Assembly (NCBI GenBank): GCA_017647795.1
Contig: JAGCJX010000025.1
Location: 1 to 64,000 of the forward strand
Reading direction: 5' to 3'
DNA length: 64,000 nucleotides
Source: Bacteroidales bacterium
GTDB taxonomy: Bacteria; Bacteroidota; Bacteroidia; Bacteroidales; UBA932
Part shown: positions 28,941 to 36,602 of the stretch, piece by piece
How the letters are laid out: the number at the start of each line of letters is the position of its first letter
Numbering within the stretch: the stretch's first letter is position 1
Made by a program: the position numbers and the translations under genes
The notes under the pieces: generated by a model
Databases searched by the model: none
The model's input: only the letters and a program-made list of their open reading frames with translations
Told to the model about the DNA's origin: nothing

Positions 28941-29744
28941 ATGCAACTGATTGAAACCATCCGTAAAAAGAAAAGTTTTTTGTGCGTCGGCTTGGACAGT
29001 GATCCCAAGTTGCTCCCCGCTCATTTGGCAGGTGAGAAAGATGCCATCTTCCAATTCAACAAGGCCATCATTGATGCAACGGCTCCTTATGCCATAGCCT
29101 ACAAACCCAACACCGCCTTCTACGAAGCCGAAGGTGCTGCTGGTTGGGAACAATTGGAAGCCACCGTAGCCTACATCAAAAAGAACTATCCCGAATGCTT
29201 CGTCATCGCGGATGCCAAACGCGGCGACATCGGAAATACCGCCCAACGCTACGCCAAAGCCTTCTTTGAAAGAATGGACTGCGACGCAGTTACCTTGGCT
29301 CCATACATGGGCAAAGACTCCATCGCCCCGTTCCTGGCGTACGAAAACAAATATGCCATCGTATTGGCCTTGACCTCCAACCCTTCTGCTGAAGAATTGG
29401 AAACCCAAGCCCTCGCCAACGGCGGCCAACTCTACGAACAAGTGATCCGCCAATGCCTCAGCTACGAAGGCAGCGAACGCATCATGTTTGTTGTCGGTGC
29501 AACCCGTCCTGAAAAACTGGCGGACATCCGCCAGCTGGCACCGGAATCATTCTTCTTGGTACCGGGTGTCGGTGCACAAGGTGGTACCGTAGAAGAAGTG
29601 GCCAAATACGGTTTGAACAAAGACTGTGGTTTGCTCGTAAACTCCTCCCGCGGCATCATCTTCGCTTCCAAAGGAGAAGACTTCGCCGAAGCTGCCGGCC
29701 GCGAAGCCCGCATCCTCGCCGAAAAAATGGCTGCGTACTTGTAG
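28941..29744 (+). CDS. pyrF: Orotidine 5'-phosphate decarboxylase
   Basis: A 267-residue type-2 OMP decarboxylase, last step of UMP synthesis. Landmarks are SFLCVGLDSDPKLLPAHL, the catalytic VIADAKRGDIGNTAQRYAKA (Lys-Asp array), VTLAPYMGKDSIAPF, LVPGVGAQGGTVEEVAKYG and VNSSRGIIFAS. It ends the rsfS operon; a strong terminator follows 35 bases later. Confidence 0.97.
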   Translation: MQLIETIRKKKSFLCVGLDSDPKLLPAHLAGEKDAIFQFNKAIIDATAPYAIAYKPNTAFYEAEGAAGWEQLEATVAYIKKNYPECFVIADAKRGDIGNTAQRYAKAFFERMDCDAVTLAPYMGKDSIAPFLAYENKYAIVLALTSNPSAEELETQALANGGQLYEQVIRQCLSYEGSERIMFVVGATRPEKLADIRQLAPESFFLVPGVGAQGGTVEEVAKYGLNKDCGLLVNSSRGIIFASKGEDFAEAAGREARILAEKMAAYL

Positions 29745-29817: not shown

Positions 29818-29841
29818 TACAGATGGATATTAGTCTACCTT

Positions 29842-29996
29842 CTATTGTTTTACTGTTTGAATTTTGGTGTGATATCCAGGAAGATTTTATGGTTGAATAA
29901 TATTTTGTATTTTAGCTGAAAATAAGTTTTTTTTTAGAAATCTACACGCTGCAAATGAAACGATTTTTTTATCTAGTACTATTGATTCTCAGTTAT
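29842..29996 (+). repeat. Island leader repeat, copy 1
   Basis: 155 bases covering the upstream region and first 14 codons of the small lipoprotein gene. They recur at 34325-34478 with one substitution and one T fewer in the poly-T run. The region contains a TAATATTTTG stretch (29898-29907) that may be the promoter. Confidence 0.9.
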
Positions 29997-30293
29997 TCTT
30001 GTGTGGATCATTCAATGGATCCACAATATTTGGATGAGCAGGAAAAAACGGGAGGCCTTCGCTCATTGATAACGAAATCACCCTCAACTCCTCAAGAAGA
30101 CAGCTTGACCATTATGAGCAAGCTTCAATCTGATGTTGACAATCTTATGATGGGGCGAGTGATCAAAAAGGACAGCCTATTTGTTCTTGCTATAAAAAGG
30201 GAAGACGCTCTATTTCTTGGTGTCAGTGAGGATGTATATGACAAATATCTTGACTATATCGATAGATTGAATGAACATTTAAAGGAAAAATAA
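29955..30293 (+). CDS. Small lipoprotein, island gene 1
   Basis: A 112-residue protein with a lipoprotein signal peptide: MKRFFYLVLLILSYSC, modified Cys at 16. The mature part is charged and helical (STPQEDSLTIMSKLQSDVDN; VSEDVYDKYLDYIDRLNEHL). I recognise no family. It begins an AT-rich group that continues with the 191-residue protein after an 11-base gap containing an AAGGAGG ribosome-binding site. A shortened copy lies at 34437-34601. It may be an accessory or immunity-type partner of the downstream hydrolase; this is inferred from position only. Confidence 0.8.
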   Translation: MKRFFYLVLLILSYSCVDHSMDPQYLDEQEKTGGLRSLITKSPSTPQEDSLTIMSKLQSDVDNLMMGRVIKKDSLFVLAIKREDALFLGVSEDVYDKYLDYIDRLNEHLKEK

Positions 30294-30303
30294 GGAGGTA
30301 AAT

Positions 30304-30879
30304 ATGAAACTTAGGATTATCGCATTATTGATATCTTGTTGTATACTTTTGATGTCTATGTCAGAGTGTGAGAAAAACAATCTCGTTCATCATACGGTGG
30401 AAAATCCCGTCTCGTGTATTATCGATGACGTCATATATGAGAGCTCTCCTGAAGTGATTTTGAATGTTGGTGGTGATATTCACCATTTGATAGAGCACGA
30501 TTGGGGATTCGCATTTGACATTCGCCGTCGTATCAATTCCAAGTTAAAATCGTACATATTATACCTTAATGTGGAAAGTCGAGAGCCATTGGAGATAGGA
30601 AAGAGGTATCCCATTGTTATATCAAAAGGAGAAGATGGGACAACTGGTGAATATTTAGGGCCTAGCAGCTTATTGGATAATTTTACAGATACTTCCAATT
30701 GGATTTATCATTATGCAATATCTGGATGGGTGGAATTTACCGATTTTTCACAAGGTAATCATTACTATGTATCAGGAATATTTGAGATGGAATGCATTGA
30801 TCACGACGATTCTCCTATAATTCTACGAAATGGCCAATTTGGACCAGTAAGAGTGTATTATGATAACATGAACGATTGA
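30304..30879 (+). CDS. Exported protein, island gene 2 (paralogue of 34612-35169)
   Basis: A 191-residue protein preceded by a strong AAGGAGGTAAAT ribosome-binding site. The N-terminus (MKLRIIALLISCCILLMSMS) is identical to the downstream paralogue, but here it ends SEC instead of SGC. The -1 residue of the lipobox is therefore Glu, which lipoprotein signal peptidase should not accept. Mature regions are diverged yet share EHDWGF, SGWVEFTDF, YYVSG and RNGQFGPV. No family recognised. It lies 17 bases before the large hydrolase gene. Confidence 0.8.
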   Translation: MKLRIIALLISCCILLMSMSECEKNNLVHHTVENPVSCIIDDVIYESSPEVILNVGGDIHHLIEHDWGFAFDIRRRINSKLKSYILYLNVESREPLEIGKRYPIVISKGEDGTTGEYLGPSSLLDNFTDTSNWIYHYAISGWVEFTDFSQGNHYYVSGIFEMECIDHDDSPIILRNGQFGPVRVYYDNMND

Positions 30880-30896
30880 GAAACACATAGATCACT

Positions 30897-33800
30897 ATGA
30901 AAGCAACAAAACACATTATACTTTGCTTGATTACTCTATGTCTTTTTCTGATTAAATCTCAAGCGCAAACAATAACGAGCAATGAGGTAGTCCGTTCTTC
31001 ATTAGATGAAATGTTTGAAGATCTGGATAAATCCAAAGTACCTACAGGGTACTTGCTTGATTATGCTATGGACTTGGTGGAGTTCGATCGCTACAATGGC
31101 ATGGAACTTACTGATAGCAATTATGTTACATCTCCCATTTTTGAAGAGATTTTATTAAGTATAAAATCTGCATCCGTTGGGTCTTCTCCATACAATGATG
31201 TTGGTCAGATAATGACAGATTTCTCTACATCTACTACAAGTAACGATATTAACATTGCCTATGTTGGCTATAAATATAACTTTATCAAAGAAAATGCTCT
31301 TGAAAACAATCTAATTTCATATGTATCAGGGAAAGTGTCCGATGTGTATGTGAATGGCGTTTGGCGGAATCCATATGATGAGGCTTATGTCTTTGCTTTT
31401 ACTCCGAGTAGGCATGTGTGTAAAGTAGGGGCTATTAATTTTAAGTTTTCGGAAACATATGCCTTTTATAATATCTCCCGAGCATTAATAAAGTTCGATG
31501 CCGGTGATGGTGTTGGTTATAGAGAATTGGGGCCAACACATACTATTACCGTTAATTATATTACGCCGGGTAGGAAAGAATTGAAATTTTATATTAAAAC
31601 TACTGATGGAGTTGTTCTGGAAACTCATTCTTCCATATATGTTTTGGATTCAACAGCCGGAACATCTGGTAATCAACAGCAAGCTAGTCTTATAGGGTGT
31701 CAGGTTGATTCCACCAATGTTACTACGGCTGAAACTTATACTGGAACAAGCGTGACTGCACAAGTTACAACTTACCTGAGAAGTGGGTACAATGTAATTA
31801 CAAAACCGTTTATTGTCGTTGAAGGGTTTGACCCTTGGCGTGTTACAAGTTCACTAGACAACTCATCTAAGAAACATGAATTAGGGAGTACGTACCATAA
31901 GAGATTTTTTGAGTATCATTTAACACCATCTTTTAGTAATGATTATGATATCATATATGTAGATTGGTACGATTCAACAGAAGACATTAGAGATAACGCG
32001 CATTTACTTATTAAGATAATCAAGGAAATCAATCAACGTAAGGCAGCAGATGGATGTACAGAGAGGACTATAATTATGGGGCAGAGTATGGGAGGATTAG
32101 TGACTCGTCTTGCTTTATGTATGATGGAAGAAGAAGGAGAAGCGCACGGAATATCCACATACATATCTCATGACTCCCCACATTTAGGAGCTAACGTTCC
32201 ATTAGGTGCTTTATATTTTGTCCACCATGCATTATCATATATATATGGTTATCAGAATGCAATTGACTTAGCGGATATCTTCTTGACAAAAGATATTGAT
32301 GATGCAAAAAGAATATTCTGGGAAATGATTCATTCCCCAGCAGTACAACAAATGTTAGTGAATCATCTTGATACTGACGGAACACTTGACAACTCTAATC
32401 ACGATTATTGGCAACAGGTTCTTGATGAGACAGGCTTTCCTTTAGGGGATGTTGGATATCCTTTAGAACGCTTGGCCATTGTTAATGGCGCCCCTAACAA
32501 TCAGTCTGATATTTTCGCTGAATTAGGACAGCATTATTTGTATTTAGATGGATATGCTAAAACTACAGTGTTAACAGACATTCTCGCTCCATTTGTAGCG
32601 GCTACGGGGATAGATCTTATTTTCGTAATTCTAGGAGCAGAACATTTGGCTAATGCTATTTCTTTTTGGGGAACAACAAAATTTGACATACATGCCGAAG
32701 TAAACCCATTTATGAGTTACGGGACGCTCCTCTCTGATTTAACGATTACGTATACAAAGAAGTTTTTATGGTGCAATAATAAAACTTATACAATCTTTTC
32801 AGAGAAAGCGTTTGCACCTCCTTCTGGTTTACGCTACGATACTTTCGCAGGTTCAAAATTTAATGTCGCAGATACTCTTGAAATGAAACGCCCACATGCT
32901 GACACGTGGTTTTATAAATATGATTTTGAATATGGATTAACCGATCGTATTATGTTCATCCCGTCAGCAAGTGCTCTCAGTATTTATGATGCCACGGAAT
33001 CAGATTATTTGCGAGACTATTATATATACCCTCCTGTTCCGGAAGTTGAATGTCCATTTGATGCCTACTCTTTGACCAATACGGTACAAAATCACATACA
33101 TATAGATGATGATATATATAATTGGCTTAAGAACCAGTTATCAGCTTATATAATAGGTCCTAATAATGCTTGGAACGGGAGTGCATATACGCTGTCCGAT
33201 TATGATGGCGCTGTAACATGGGGCACCTCAGACAGTAACGTAGCAACGATTGATGATTCCGGAAGACTTACGGCCCATGGAAATGGTTTTGTTACGATAA
33301 CAGCCCAATCTTATAATGATGGCCAATTATTGCGAAAGAAAAAAACCATCTTTGTCGGTTTCCCTGATATTGTCATTAAAAGTGCATATTCTGCTGGTGT
33401 TGGCTATCAGTTCGTCGCAGAGAGCACCAATAATGATATGACACAAATACTGAATCGAATGGTTGCCAAAGGGGGCTTTCAATATGAATGGTCACTGATT
33501 GATGGTGATGGAAAACTGGTAACAAAAACAACTTCTTCCAATGTGTTTTCATATTTACCGAGTGTGGATGAAGAAATTACCATAGTTGCCCGTCTTGTAA
33601 ATGTGGAAGGAGATAAAGGTCCCGTCAAAAGTCTGTCTTATAACTTGAGAACCCCCATGTCTGTGAATTATCGATATGTTGTTGTCGATGCAGAACACAA
33701 TATTTATTTCATAACAGACGATAACACCTATGAAATAGGACTTCCTTCCGAGGAGTTTTCAGCAACATTTAGAAATCTCCTAATGAATTCAGTAGACAAA

Positions 33801-34103
33801 ATGAATGTTGTTTATCTGAGACAGAAATACCTAAAAGGTAGAGATTGCTATATATCTTATCCGTACGGCATTAGAATGACTGGGTATATGAAAGGAATCC
33901 TTCAGCCGGCCCATAGCCGGTGGGTATTTGACTTCTTCAATCATGCATTGTTTTTGGATGAGTTGGAAGATGCTCTTGTGCAAACAAACCAAAATGAGAG
34001 GATAATCAAAGATTTCCACTTGGCAATATGTAATACGAATCAAGAAAAGCTACAGGAAATTCCATTTGTAATTATCTACAAACCAAATTTCCCGGAGAAT
34101 TAA
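30897..34103 (+). CDS. Large secreted alpha/beta-hydrolase (lipase/esterase-like) with Ig-like domain
   Basis: A 1068-residue protein with a Sec signal peptide ending SQAQ (residue 23). Residues 295-460 form an alpha/beta-hydrolase: an oxyanion-type strand FIVVEGFDPWRV, DIIYVDWYDS, and the nucleophile elbow IIMGQSMGGLVTRLAL (GxSxG, Ser about 400), then YISHDSPHLGANVPLGA as in PGAP1/triacylglycerol-lipase relatives. Residues 760-820 resemble a BIG2 Ig-like domain (VTWGTSDSNVATIDDSGRLTAHGNGFVTITAQS, split here only by naming). The C-terminus lacks a recognisable T9SS sorting domain. It is strongly AT-rich compared with core genes. Substrate is unknown; it may be a secreted lipase or a toxin-like effector with the neighbouring exported proteins as partners. 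Confidence 0.8.
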   Translation: MKATKHIILCLITLCLFLIKSQAQTITSNEVVRSSLDEMFEDLDKSKVPTGYLLDYAMDLVEFDRYNGMELTDSNYVTSPIFEEILLSIKSASVGSSPYNDVGQIMTDFSTSTTSNDINIAYVGYKYNFIKENALENNLISYVSGKVSDVYVNGVWRNPYDEAYVFAFTPSRHVCKVGAINFKFSETYAFYNISRALIKFDAGDGVGYRELGPTHTITVNYITPGRKELKFYIKTTDGVVLETHSSIYVLDSTAGTSGNQQQASLIGCQVDSTNVTTAETYTGTSVTAQVTTYLRSGYNVITKPFIVVEGFDPWRVTSSLDNSSKKHELGSTYHKRFFEYHLTPSFSNDYDIIYVDWYDSTEDIRDNAHLLIKIIKEINQRKAADGCTERTIIMGQSMGGLVTRLALCMMEEEGEAHGISTYISHDSPHLGANVPLGALYFVHHALSYIYGYQNAIDLADIFLTKDIDDAKRIFWEMIHSPAVQQMLVNHLDTDGTLDNSNHDYWQQVLDETGFPLGDVGYPLERLAIVNGAPNNQSDIFAELGQHYLYLDGYAKTTVLTDILAPFVAATGIDLIFVILGAEHLANAISFWGTTKFDIHAEVNPFMSYGTLLSDLTITYTKKFLWCNNKTYTIFSEKAFAPPSGLRYDTFAGSKFNVADTLEMKRPHADTWFYKYDFEYGLTDRIMFIPSASALSIYDATESDYLRDYYIYPPVPEVECPFDAYSLTNTVQNHIHIDDDIYNWLKNQLSAYIIGPNNAWNGSAYTLSDYDGAVTWGTSDSNVATIDDSGRLTAHGNGFVTITAQSYNDGQLLRKKKTIFVGFPDIVIKSAYSAGVGYQFVAESTNNDMTQILNRMVAKGGFQYEWSLIDGDGKLVTKTTSSNVFSYLPSVDEEITIVARLVNVEGDKGPVKSLSYNLRTPMSVNYRYVVVDAEHNIYFITDDNTYEIGLPSEEFSATFRNLLMNSVDKMNVVYLRQKYLKGRDCYISYPYGIRMTGYMKGILQPAHSRWVFDFFNHALFLDELEDALVQTNQNERIIKDFHLAICNTNQEKLQEIPFVIIYKPNFPEN

Positions 34104-34132
34104 AGGTTGGCCAGACAAATTTGGTTTTCTCC

Positions 34133-34226
34133 TTAGAACCGTAAACCGAAGGCAAGCAGCAGGTGCATGTTGCGGGAGACTTGCCATAAATACAGATATG
34201 CGCTTACCGTGAATTTAAAACAAAAC
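34133..34226 (-). pseudogene. C-terminal remnant of an outer-membrane beta-barrel gene
   Basis: Between hydrolase stop and the 93-bp repeat, the minus strand reads 28-30 codons: FKFTVSAYLYLWQVSRNM then HLLLAFGLRF and stop at 34133-34135. Alternating residues with a terminal Phe (GLRF) are the hallmark of a barrel's last strand. A stop codon lies just upstream and the fragment ends where the repeat begins at 34229, so the rest of the gene has been lost. Confidence 0.5.
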
Positions 34227-34228
34227 TT

Positions 34229-34321
34229 CATAACAAAACCCCGAAAGTTTTTTGTCTAACTTTCGGGGTTCATGTCGGATCTTTCGGCTTCATGTTAGAG
34301 TCTGATGACTGATTAGTCATC
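34229..34321. repeat. 93-bp perfect direct repeat, copy 1 (right arm truncated)
   Basis: Identical over 93 bases to 35229-35321. It contains a perfect 13-bp hairpin (34237-34249 with 34258-34270, AACCCCGAAAGTT) and a second hairpin whose right arm stops after AGTCATC. In the other copy that arm is complete. Copy 1 therefore ends at a recombination junction. Confidence 0.95.
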
Positions 34322-34324
34322 CTA

Positions 34325-34478
34325 CTATTGTTTTACTGTTTGAATTTTGGTGTGATATCCAGGAAGATTTTATGGTTGAATAATATTTTGTATTTTAGCT
34401 GAAAATAAGTTTTTTTTAGAAAGCTACACGCTGCAAATGAAACGATTTTTTTATCTAGTACTATTGATTCTCAGTTAT
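34325..34478 (+). repeat. Island leader repeat, copy 2
   Basis: Near-identical copy of 29842-29996, beginning three bases after the truncated 93-bp repeat. It ends at the point where the small lipoprotein copy loses 58 codons. Confidence 0.9.
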
Positions 34479-34601
34479 GATAGCCTATTTGTTCTTGCTA
34501 TAAAAAGGGAAGATGCCTTGTTTCTCGGAGTCAGTGAGGATGTATATGACAAATATCTTGACTATATCGATAGTTTGAATGAACATTTAAAGGAAAAATA
34601 A
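34437..34601 (+). pseudogene. Internally deleted copy of the small lipoprotein gene
   Basis: The ORF starts MKRFFYLVLLILSYD and rejoins the parent at SLFVLAIKRE. Fifty-eight codons (174 bp) are missing compared with 29955-30293, yet the frame is kept, giving 54 residues that end LNEHLKEK. The deletion removes the lipobox cysteine, so the product would keep a hydrophobic N-terminus but not be lipidated. It still precedes its downstream neighbour by the same AAGGAGG site. It may be a decayed gene or may serve only for translation coupling. Confidence 0.7.
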
Positions 34602-34611
34602 GGAGGTAAAT

Positions 34612-35169
34612 ATGAAACTTAGGATTATCGCATTATTGATATCTTGTTGTATACTTTTGATGTCTATGTCTGGATGTGAAAGGAATAATCTAATATACCA
34701 CACTGAAGATAATCCTGTGTCGTGTACAATTGACGGCATCGAATATAAGAGTTCTCCAGAAAGAGTATTGAATTGGGGGGGGGTCGCTCATGAATTCTCT
34801 GAACATGATTGGGGATTCTTCTTTGAGTTGCGACGATATGTGGATTCTGATAAGAAATCATACCTCATAGTCCTCAATGTAGAAATCAGTGAGTCCTTTG
34901 AGTTAGGGAAGAAGTATCCCATCAATGTCAGGACAGAAGAATATGAATATCTCGGTGCTGGCTATTTGAGAGAATATTCCTCAGCTTCTACAACACATTA
35001 TGTAATCTCCGGATGGGTGGAATTCACAGATTTCTATAAAGAGTATAGCAACTACTATGTATCGGGAGTATTTGAAATGGATTGCTTGGATTCCGACGAT
35101 TCTCCCCTGAGGGTCCGAAATGGTCAATTCGGTCCTGTGATAGTAGGGTATAGCAATTTTAAAGAGTAA
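34612..35169 (+). CDS. Lipoprotein, island gene 2 paralogue
   Basis: A 185-residue lipoprotein: MKLRIIALLISCCILLMSMS then GC, a proper lipobox with Cys at 22. It is a diverged paralogue of 30304-30879. The signal peptide is the same at nucleotide level, while the mature part shares only blocks (NPVSCTIDGI, EHDWGF, ISGWVEFTDF, YYVSGVFEM, DDSPLRVRNGQFGPV). No hydrolase follows it. It lies 10 bases after the shortened lipoprotein copy. Function unknown; an orphan immunity-type gene is one possibility. Confidence 0.8.
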   Translation: MKLRIIALLISCCILLMSMSGCERNNLIYHTEDNPVSCTIDGIEYKSSPERVLNWGGVAHEFSEHDWGFFFELRRYVDSDKKSYLIVLNVEISESFELGKKYPINVRTEEYEYLGAGYLREYSSASTTHYVISGWVEFTDFYKEYSNYYVSGVFEMDCLDSDDSPLRVRNGQFGPVIVGYSNFKE

Positions 35170-35228
35170 AAACACCTGAATCTTAATATGATAGAAACAA
35201 TCAAACGCATATTCGTTGAGACTGTAAA

Positions 35229-35326
35229 CATAACAAAACCCCGAAAGTTTTTTGTCTAACTTTCGGGGTTCATGTCGGATCTTTCGGCTTCATGTTAGAG
35301 TCTGATGACTGATTAGTCATCAGACT
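35229..35326. repeat. 93-bp direct repeat, copy 2 (complete double hairpin, probable terminator)
   Basis: Bases 35229-35321 equal 34229-34321. The second hairpin here is complete: AGTCTGATGACT (35299-35310), loop GATT, AGTCATCAGACT (35315-35326), followed on the plus strand by TTCTTTAAT. On the minus strand the 13-bp hairpin is followed by TTTTGTT. It probably terminates both the island and the clpX operon. Confidence 0.85.
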
Positions 35327-35351: not shown

Positions 35352-36602
35352 TCACAAGGTACCGGTGAATCGGGTGACCTTTTCTTGTGCAAATTCCAAG
35401 GTTACAACGAATTCCTTGGCATCGCTGCCCGGCAGATCGTACATCGGATCCAACATGATGGCCTCGCAGATAGAACGTAGACCACGGGCTCCTAGGTTGT
35501 ACTTCAAGGCCGTATCGACGATGAATTCCAAGACCGGTTGTTCGACCGTCAATTGGACACCGTCCAAGGCAAAGATCCGTTCATATTGCTTCATCAACGC
35601 GTTCTTCGGCTCGGTCAGGATCCGCAACAAGGCTTCGCGGTCCAAGGGATTCAGATAGGTCAACACCGGCATACGACCGATGATTTCCGGAATCAGACCG
35701 TACGAACGCAAGTCTTGCGGAGCAATGTATTGCAGCAAATTTTCCTTGTCAATGCGCTCGTTTTTCTGTTGGGCACCGTAACCCACTACCCGGGTATTCA
35801 AGCGTTGGGCGATCTTGCGCTCAATGCCTTCAAAAGCACCGCCACAGATGAACAGGATGTTTTGGGTGTTCACGGCCACCATCGCTTGTTCCGGGTGCTT
35901 GCGTCCCCCTTTCGGCGGCACATTCACCACACTGCCTTCCAGCAGTTTCAACATCGCCTGTTGCACACCTTCTCCAGAGACATCCCGGGTAATCGAAGGG
36001 TTGTCGCTCTTGCGGGCAATCTTGTCAATCTCATCGATGAAAACAATACCGCGTTCGGCACGTTCTACGTCGTAATCGGCCTCCTGCAGCAGGCGGGTCA
36101 AAATGCTTTCCACGTCTTCGCCGACATAACCGGCCTCGGTCAGAACCGTGGCATCGACAATGGCAAAGGGCACATTCAACATTTTGGCAATACTCTTGGC
36201 CAGCAAGGTCTTGCCCGTACCGGTAGCACCAACAAGCAGGATGTTGGACTTCTCAAGTTCCACTTCCGACTTACCCGCATTTTTCGCTGCCTGGATGCGT
36301 TTGTAGTGGTTGTACACCGCCACCGACAGAAATTTCTTCGCATCATCCTGACCGATGACATAGTCATCCAAGAAGGTCTTGATTTCACGCGGACTCATCA
36401 ACAAAGCCTCGGTTGCATCGGCTTTCTTTGATTTCTTTTTGCCCGGCTTCGGGAGGTCGTCTCCGAAATAACCACGCACGTGGTCGGAGATGGTCATTGC
36501 GCATTCTACACAAAGAAAAGCGGAGTTTGTTCCGAGGAACATCTCCACTTGATCTTCAGTTCTGCCGCAAAAAGAACAACGGTTTTTGCTATCTTTTGCC
36601 AT
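35352..36602 (-). CDS. clpX: ATP-dependent Clp protease ATP-binding subunit ClpX
   Basis: A 416-residue AAA+ unfoldase that feeds ClpP. N-terminal zinc-binding domain [16 protein letters not shown] with CVECA, Walker [19 protein letters not shown], Walker [15 protein letters not shown], pore loop region [16 protein letters not shown], and the AAA+ lid near [11 protein letters not shown]. Its 5' end overlaps the clpP 3' end by 14 bases. Confidence 0.98.

Follow-up and report, generated by a model that had tools for sequence, protein, structure and literature searches.

Two stretches of 93 bp, identical to the last base, lie exactly 1000 bp apart between pyrF and clpX in a Bacteroidales bacterium (assembly GCA_017647795.1, contig JAGCJX010000025.1). 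What are these repeats, and how did they come to stand twice at one locus? The initial annotation of the window, by which we mean the whole stretch of 64,000 nucleotides analysed here, treated them as the terminator of an operon duplicated in tandem. We find it probable that each copy is instead a fossil insertion point of an IS3-family element, carried in a duplicated and partly decayed cassette. In place of a duplicated terminator, the locus then tells a legible story of an IS that inserted and decayed and of a cassette that was duplicated. The locus itself is ordinary IS archaeology; the interesting part is the targeting of terminator loops, to which it leads.

The block between pyrF and clpX

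In the window, pyrF and clpX are separated by 5.6 kb; in a sister species (G001), the two genes are convergent and only 40 bp apart, and the cassette is absent. The GC content of the block is 0.37, against 0.49-0.50 around it. Its order is lipoprotein A, lipoprotein B, hydrolase, copy 1 of the repeat, leader 2, A', B' and copy 2, as follows (P being a dispersed palindrome described below; P arms are given without strand):

28941-29744, plus strand: pyrF (Pfam OMPdecase), left flank of the block; adjoins clpX in the sister species
29821-29841: decayed arm of P in front of unit 1, GATGGATATTAGTCTACCTTC, with a homologue where copy 1 meets leader 2
29842-29954, plus strand: leader 1, 99% identical to leader 2
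29955-30293, plus strand: lipoprotein A, 112 aa, an ORF with homologues in genome G065 and on a B. ovatus plasmid
30304-30879, plus strand: lipoprotein B, 191 aa, distantly Riean_0653-like (NCBIfam, 30.3 bits, below cut-off); paralogue on contig C28 of the same genome (G000)
30897-34103, plus strand: secreted alpha/beta hydrolase, 1068 aa, PGAP1/DUF676-like with a Big_2 domain (Pfam, above gathering scores)
34216-34276, minus strand: IS3-family left end relic of copy 1, with the left inverted repeat (TGACATGAACCCCGAAAGTTAGACA type), a subterminal hairpin, the orfA start codon and about 13 bp of type-B orfA
34277-34298, minus strand: probable second, decayed IS left end of copy 1, abutting the first; ACATGAA-GCCGAAAG against ACATGAACCCCGAAAG
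34299-34325: half of the terminator-like palindrome P, copy 1, with a 7-bp stem, GATGACT-GATT-AGTCATC
34325-34436, plus strand: leader 2, homologous to leader 1
34437-34601, plus strand: lipoprotein A', 54 aa, shortened in frame by 58 internal codons, the lipobox cysteine among them
34612-35169, plus strand: lipoprotein B', 185 aa, 60% identical to B
35188-35228, plus strand: what is probably left of the hydrolase start of unit 2, running directly into the IS relic
35229-35276, minus strand: IS3-family left end relic of copy 2, 48/48 to dispersed IS ends; homology stops at the orfA start codon
35277-35298, minus strand: the same probable decayed second end, copy 2, identical to copy 1
35299-35326: the same half palindrome P, copy 2, extended to a perfect 12-bp hairpin
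35352-36602, minus strand: clpX (Pfam), right flank of the block

The three genes of unit 1 have a counterpart on the mobilizable B. ovatus plasmid NZ_CP041396.1, where a small lipoprotein, a lipoprotein and an Ig-like hydrolase form a module (81853-85998) of the same gene order. The two hydrolases share 32% identity over 84%, and A is clearly related. The plasmid module differs from the block in the weak similarity of its gene B and in that no duplicated second unit is seen in the annotated stretch. Genome G065 holds an A-B pair without a hydrolase, and a lone B paralogue lies elsewhere in the window's own genome. The same cassette was found neither in other strains or species by a lipoprotein B search of genome contigs nor by DNA in 393 genomes of the order, and a protein search of 300 genomes of the family returned only the lone B paralogue and the distant pair. 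The window belongs to a fragmented draft assembly (33 contigs, 86% complete), and the two-unit form was read in this assembly alone.

The repeat carries an IS3-family left end

As the initial annotation had stated, 34229-34321 and 35229-35321 agree base for base (93/93 in a comparison within the window) at a distance of 1000 bp. A chance origin of 93 identical bases is excluded; the roundness of the spacing is a coincidence. The flanks of the two copies differ, on the left and right alike. Each copy begins with a 48-bp IS left end, continues with 22 bp resembling a second such end, and closes with the half palindrome AGTCTGATGACTGATTAGTCA.

The first 48 bp recur at unrelated loci in the same genome (contigs C25, C18 and C22:97806) and, at 98-100% identity, in several further genera of the family, with complete elements among the matches. 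Many of these copies lie about 90 bp from contig ends, as is expected for a multicopy element. Reading outward from them, one meets a transposase start on the minus strand, either of type A (MSKKRKK...) or of type B (MKFSFEIKLEAVKS...). Copy 1 matches the complete type-B elements L147 and L148 at 98.3% over 60 bp, and L092 and L140 at 100% over 48 bp. Thus, the window copies hold the left inverted repeat and the orfA start of IS3 elements (48/48; 60 bp at 98.3%). The reading of the repeat as the operon's terminator does not agree with this picture, since more than half of it (48 of 93 bp) is an IS3-family end found at many unrelated loci; recurrence there as a mobile element is what the initial annotation itself had named as evidence against its view.

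In copy 1, the IS homology extends leftward beyond the repeat to 34216, so that 34229 is not an element boundary there. Type-B orfA is consequently retained 13 bp further in copy 1 than in copy 2, and copy 1 therefore does not derive from copy 2 in its present form. The spacer upstream (34104-34215) gave no match when compared as IS interior. Both window copies are devoid of a transposase gene and of a right inverted repeat. Because no type-B transposase (OrfA) start is detectable in the window's own genome either, they are relics rather than elements, with the left end only.

A complete relative, L092 (G032:C10), consists of the left inverted repeat TGACATGAACCCCGAAAGTTAGACA, OrfA (180 aa) and OrfB (263 aa) in separate reading frames, and the right inverted repeat TGATGTGACCCCCAAAAGTTGGACGG. 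Its OrfB is an IS3-family transposase (NF033516, transpos_IS3, 312 bits against a cut-off of 160), and the OrfB proteins of the complete relatives carry an rve integrase core together with HTH_21, making them DDE transposases of the IS3 type. The terminal inverted repeats are imperfect, start with TG and end with CA (TGACATGAACCCCGAAAGTTAGAC / TGATGTGACCCCCAAAAGTTGGAC); we take them to be of the IS150-like subgroup. Complete relatives thus share with the IS3 family the OrfA/OrfB pair with an rve core, the TG...CA ends and target duplications of 3-4 bp, from all of which the window copies differ in preserving a left end without transposase.

In the folded left end of L092 (1655-1720), the orfA start codon lies inside a stem. 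When the transcribed left end of complete elements is folded, the AUGUC at the orfA start forms base pairs with GACAU, and such a fold at the 5' end of the RNA would likely guard against expression of transposase from read-through transcripts.

The 22 bp outside the 48-bp core probably represent a second, decayed IS left end: only 0.2% of shuffles resemble one as well. This second end is absent from the sister-species locus L016, as the alignment shows. A search of 10 IS-end loci against Rfam gave no match, so that an rRNA or an already known RNA terminator is rejected as the identity of the repeat. Other remains of these elements were also met with. A third decayed relic, L023 (G000:C22:97806-97937), keeps about 29 transposase codons and lies directly 3' of an nqrF-like gene. 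At L007 (G000:C14:1303-1338) and L014 (G027:C15), two facing IS ends form miniatures of about 48 bp, gene-free between the ends, which are possibly a MITE form of the IS.

Complete relatives insert into terminator loops

We retrieved 80 relatives of the element and read both ends where they could be found; 33 loci (L140-L217) were analysed, all of this IS clade. They belong to gut Bacteroidales, Prevotella and Fibrobacter, and the terminators at these sites are of unrelated sequence. The flanking arms pair as a hairpin above the 95% level of re-paired flanks at 20 of the 33 loci. A 3-bp target duplication was present at 18/33 sites, against 2.4% expected, and some sites had 4 bp. When the insertion sites were rebuilt, 26/33 resembled intrinsic terminators, compared to 146 of 792 random stretches (18%) taken from the same loci (Fisher p 4e-13). 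Since the flanks pair, target duplications are present and most rebuilt sites are terminator-like, we conclude that these elements insert in the loops of terminator-type hairpins of many different sequences.

Group IIC introns also insert at intrinsic terminators, but they are retroelements with another mechanism, whereas a DDE transposase is at work here. Among IS3-family elements, IS1397, ISKpn1 and ISPsy8 insert in REP palindromes (PMC1525189). These share with our elements the family and the palindromic hairpin target (PMC1525189); the difference is that the targets here are mostly terminator hairpins of unrelated sequence, P palindromes being a subset. Insertions in P palindromes were seen at L148, L016 and L019, the one at L148 being a complete element with the target duplication GAC; most of the others sit in unrelated terminators. 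The target thus seems to be recognised by structure rather than as one repeat family. Our literature search found no account of IS3 elements targeting terminators; it did not extend to subscription papers, so novelty is unproven.

We would tentatively go one step further and suppose that, in gut Bacteroidales, Prevotella and Fibrobacter, one clade of IS3-family elements finds the loops of intrinsic terminators by their structure and not by sequence, which gives it safe intergenic sites, and that the fossil ends and palindromes become seams for the duplication or exchange of lipoprotein cassettes, possibly of immunity partners of the hydrolase. If true, a DDE transposase clade that seeks out terminator loops of many different sequences would offer a natural example of insertion guided by structure, at safe sites between genes. 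Targeting of this kind would also explain repeats between genes that break short-read assemblies.

The half palindrome and termination at the locus

The closing part of the repeat is itself dispersed. The pattern GACTNNTTAGTCA occurs at 33 places in five genomes, against 5 for a reversed control, often in facing pairs that form a hairpin of about 40 bp. The right half of the repeat, AGTCTGATGACTGATTAGTCA, is found again at the unrelated locus L016 of the sister species, directly against a type-B IS end and beside a TonB receptor gene. The terminator of clpX was considered as the source of the hairpin and rejected, because 40 bp is all that separates pyrF from clpX in the sister species, and because this half of the hairpin also stands at the TonB receptor gene.

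A dispersed palindrome, GGTGACTAA(AA or TC)AGTC-n4-6-GACT(TT or GA)TTAGTCACC, was observed at G000:C11:17530, C22:134528 and C28:22113 and at G001 and G007 loci (L100-L126); in the majority of its complete copies, an arm of the AA/TT form faces one of the TC/GA form.

The perfect 12-bp hairpin initially described at copy 2 is indeed there (35299-35326, AGTCTGATGACT-GATT-AGTCATCAGACT) and folds in computation. In copy 1, unbroken pairing covers only 7 bp (AGTCATC, then CTACT), and from this it had been argued that copy 1 breaks off mid-arm and is hence the product of the duplication. The half hairpin of copy 1 is, however, not a simple break. The arms of related palindromes elsewhere follow the consensus AGTCA[CT]CCT, which the flank of copy 1 (AGTCATCCT) fits and that of copy 2 (AGTCATCAG) does not; the arm-fit scores (P 0.08 for copy 1, 0.51 for copy 2) are a weak comparison of 7-mers, in which copy 1 fits at least as well. 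The hairpin alone thus leaves the polarity of the copies undecided.

As to termination, the terminator scan flagged the large hairpin only on the minus strand; on the plus strand it is followed by TTCATGTC, with no T-run. The outer hairpin of copy 2 has a weak tail, TCTTTAAT, and that of copy 1 has none. The repeat therefore does not combine a GC-rich stem and a T-run in operon direction as an intrinsic terminator does. Unit 2 may still be terminated by the hairpin of copy 2 and the weak T-tract behind it. No such stop is likely at copy 1, where transcripts of unit 1 would probably continue into unit 2. In their present state, both copies are probably structural remains.

Origin of the second unit

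The stretch following copy 1 (34321-34478) is 98% identical to that before unit 1 (29838-29996), and the two units then form a mosaic: 99% identity in the leader, 93% in the 3' part of A and 100% in the final 93 bp. Beyond a sharp boundary near codon 21, B and B' share only about 72% of their DNA, with dS ~1.9 and dN 0.34. One recent clean duplication does not fit such values, as B and B' have diverged (60% aa identity, dS ~1.9) beside a leader at 99% and a repeat at 100%; the mosaic needs gene conversion or the import of a divergent allele. Downstream of B', about 40 bp (some 10 codons) resemble the hydrolase start, an alignment matched or beaten by 2/1000 shuffles. Because this remnant ends at the IS orfA start codon, a deletion reaching the IS relic probably removed the hydrolase of unit 2, although, given the A-B pair of G065, the unit might never have had a full one.

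The initial proposal, in which a tandem duplication was followed by the loss of the hydrolase from the second unit, is plausible in outline. The homologous leaders (99%), the same gene order, the same 93-bp ends, the hydrolase-start remnant and the 13 bp of additional orfA in copy 1 agree with it; what falls away is the repeat as a native terminator and the single recent clean event.

We propose the following history. An IS3-family element inserted into the loop of a terminator-like palindrome near an A-B-hydrolase cassette, as is shown by its homology to complete elements that occupy targets of this class; that it did so at exactly this place we infer, since each copy is without an IS right end and offers no target duplication for comparison. 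The element then lost its body and its right end, as is evident from the left end and the half palindrome being all that remains. The cassette with its fossil end presumably became two tandem units between pyrF and clpX, most likely by recombination between the short P palindromes bounding the unit. We favour this route because the degenerate P arm before leader 1 has its homologue in the seam that joins copy 1 to leader 2; the seam can be read, and the event is deduced from it. Against the route stand the shortness and decay of the P homology in front of leader 1 (~71% over 21 bp). Unit 2 would next have lost its hydrolase, in a deletion that reached the start codon of the IS orfA, and also the central part of gene A; the sequence supports both losses. 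Finally, a divergent allele may have replaced gene B or been exchanged for it, with the leader and the fossil end staying or becoming identical, as the identity mosaic implies.

Other scenarios account for part of these data. It is possible, though rather doubtful, that unit 2 arrived separately, brought in from another strain as a related cassette of leader, A', B' and fossil IS end. Linear or circular, this cassette would have recombined with the fossil end or P already present, the repeats being identical because they served as the crossover site. Such an arrival explains how 93 bp at 100% and a leader at 99% can stand beside B and B' proteins differing at 40% of residues, with dS ~1.9 past codon ~21, and the module is mobile elsewhere, on the mobilizable B. 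ovatus plasmid. No donor, however, appears in the 393 genomes of the order (DNA) or the 300 of the family (protein), and the apparent remnant of the hydrolase start suggests that unit 2 came from a full unit. That remnant, like the tandem order and the common leader and 3' end, also agrees with the initial view of a native leader-to-terminator unit duplicated in tandem, with a junction that cut the hairpin of copy 1 and made this copy the product. We nevertheless regard that view as improbable: the common 3' end is an IS end present at unrelated loci, the flank of copy 1 fits the arm of the dispersed palindrome no worse than that of copy 2, and copy 1 holds more of the IS than the present copy 2, from which it thus cannot descend.

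We give equally little credence to an assembly chimera, in which the two units would be alleles of one locus from two co-occurring strains, misjoined through the 93-bp repeat and P. Identical flanks around divergent bodies are typical of alleles, and the assembly is a fragmented draft; but the seam between copy 1 and leader 2 needs a join of fossil end and leader, for which single-unit alleles would offer only ~20 bp of P, and the degenerate remnants (the deletion in A' and the hydrolase start) are specific to unit 2. Duplication and decay of a cassette bearing a fossil IS3-family end remains the reading we prefer.

One more observation concerns A' (34437-34601): its conserved C-terminal 40 codons are kept with mostly synonymous changes (dS 0.39, dN 0.01), and its lipobox cysteine is gone.
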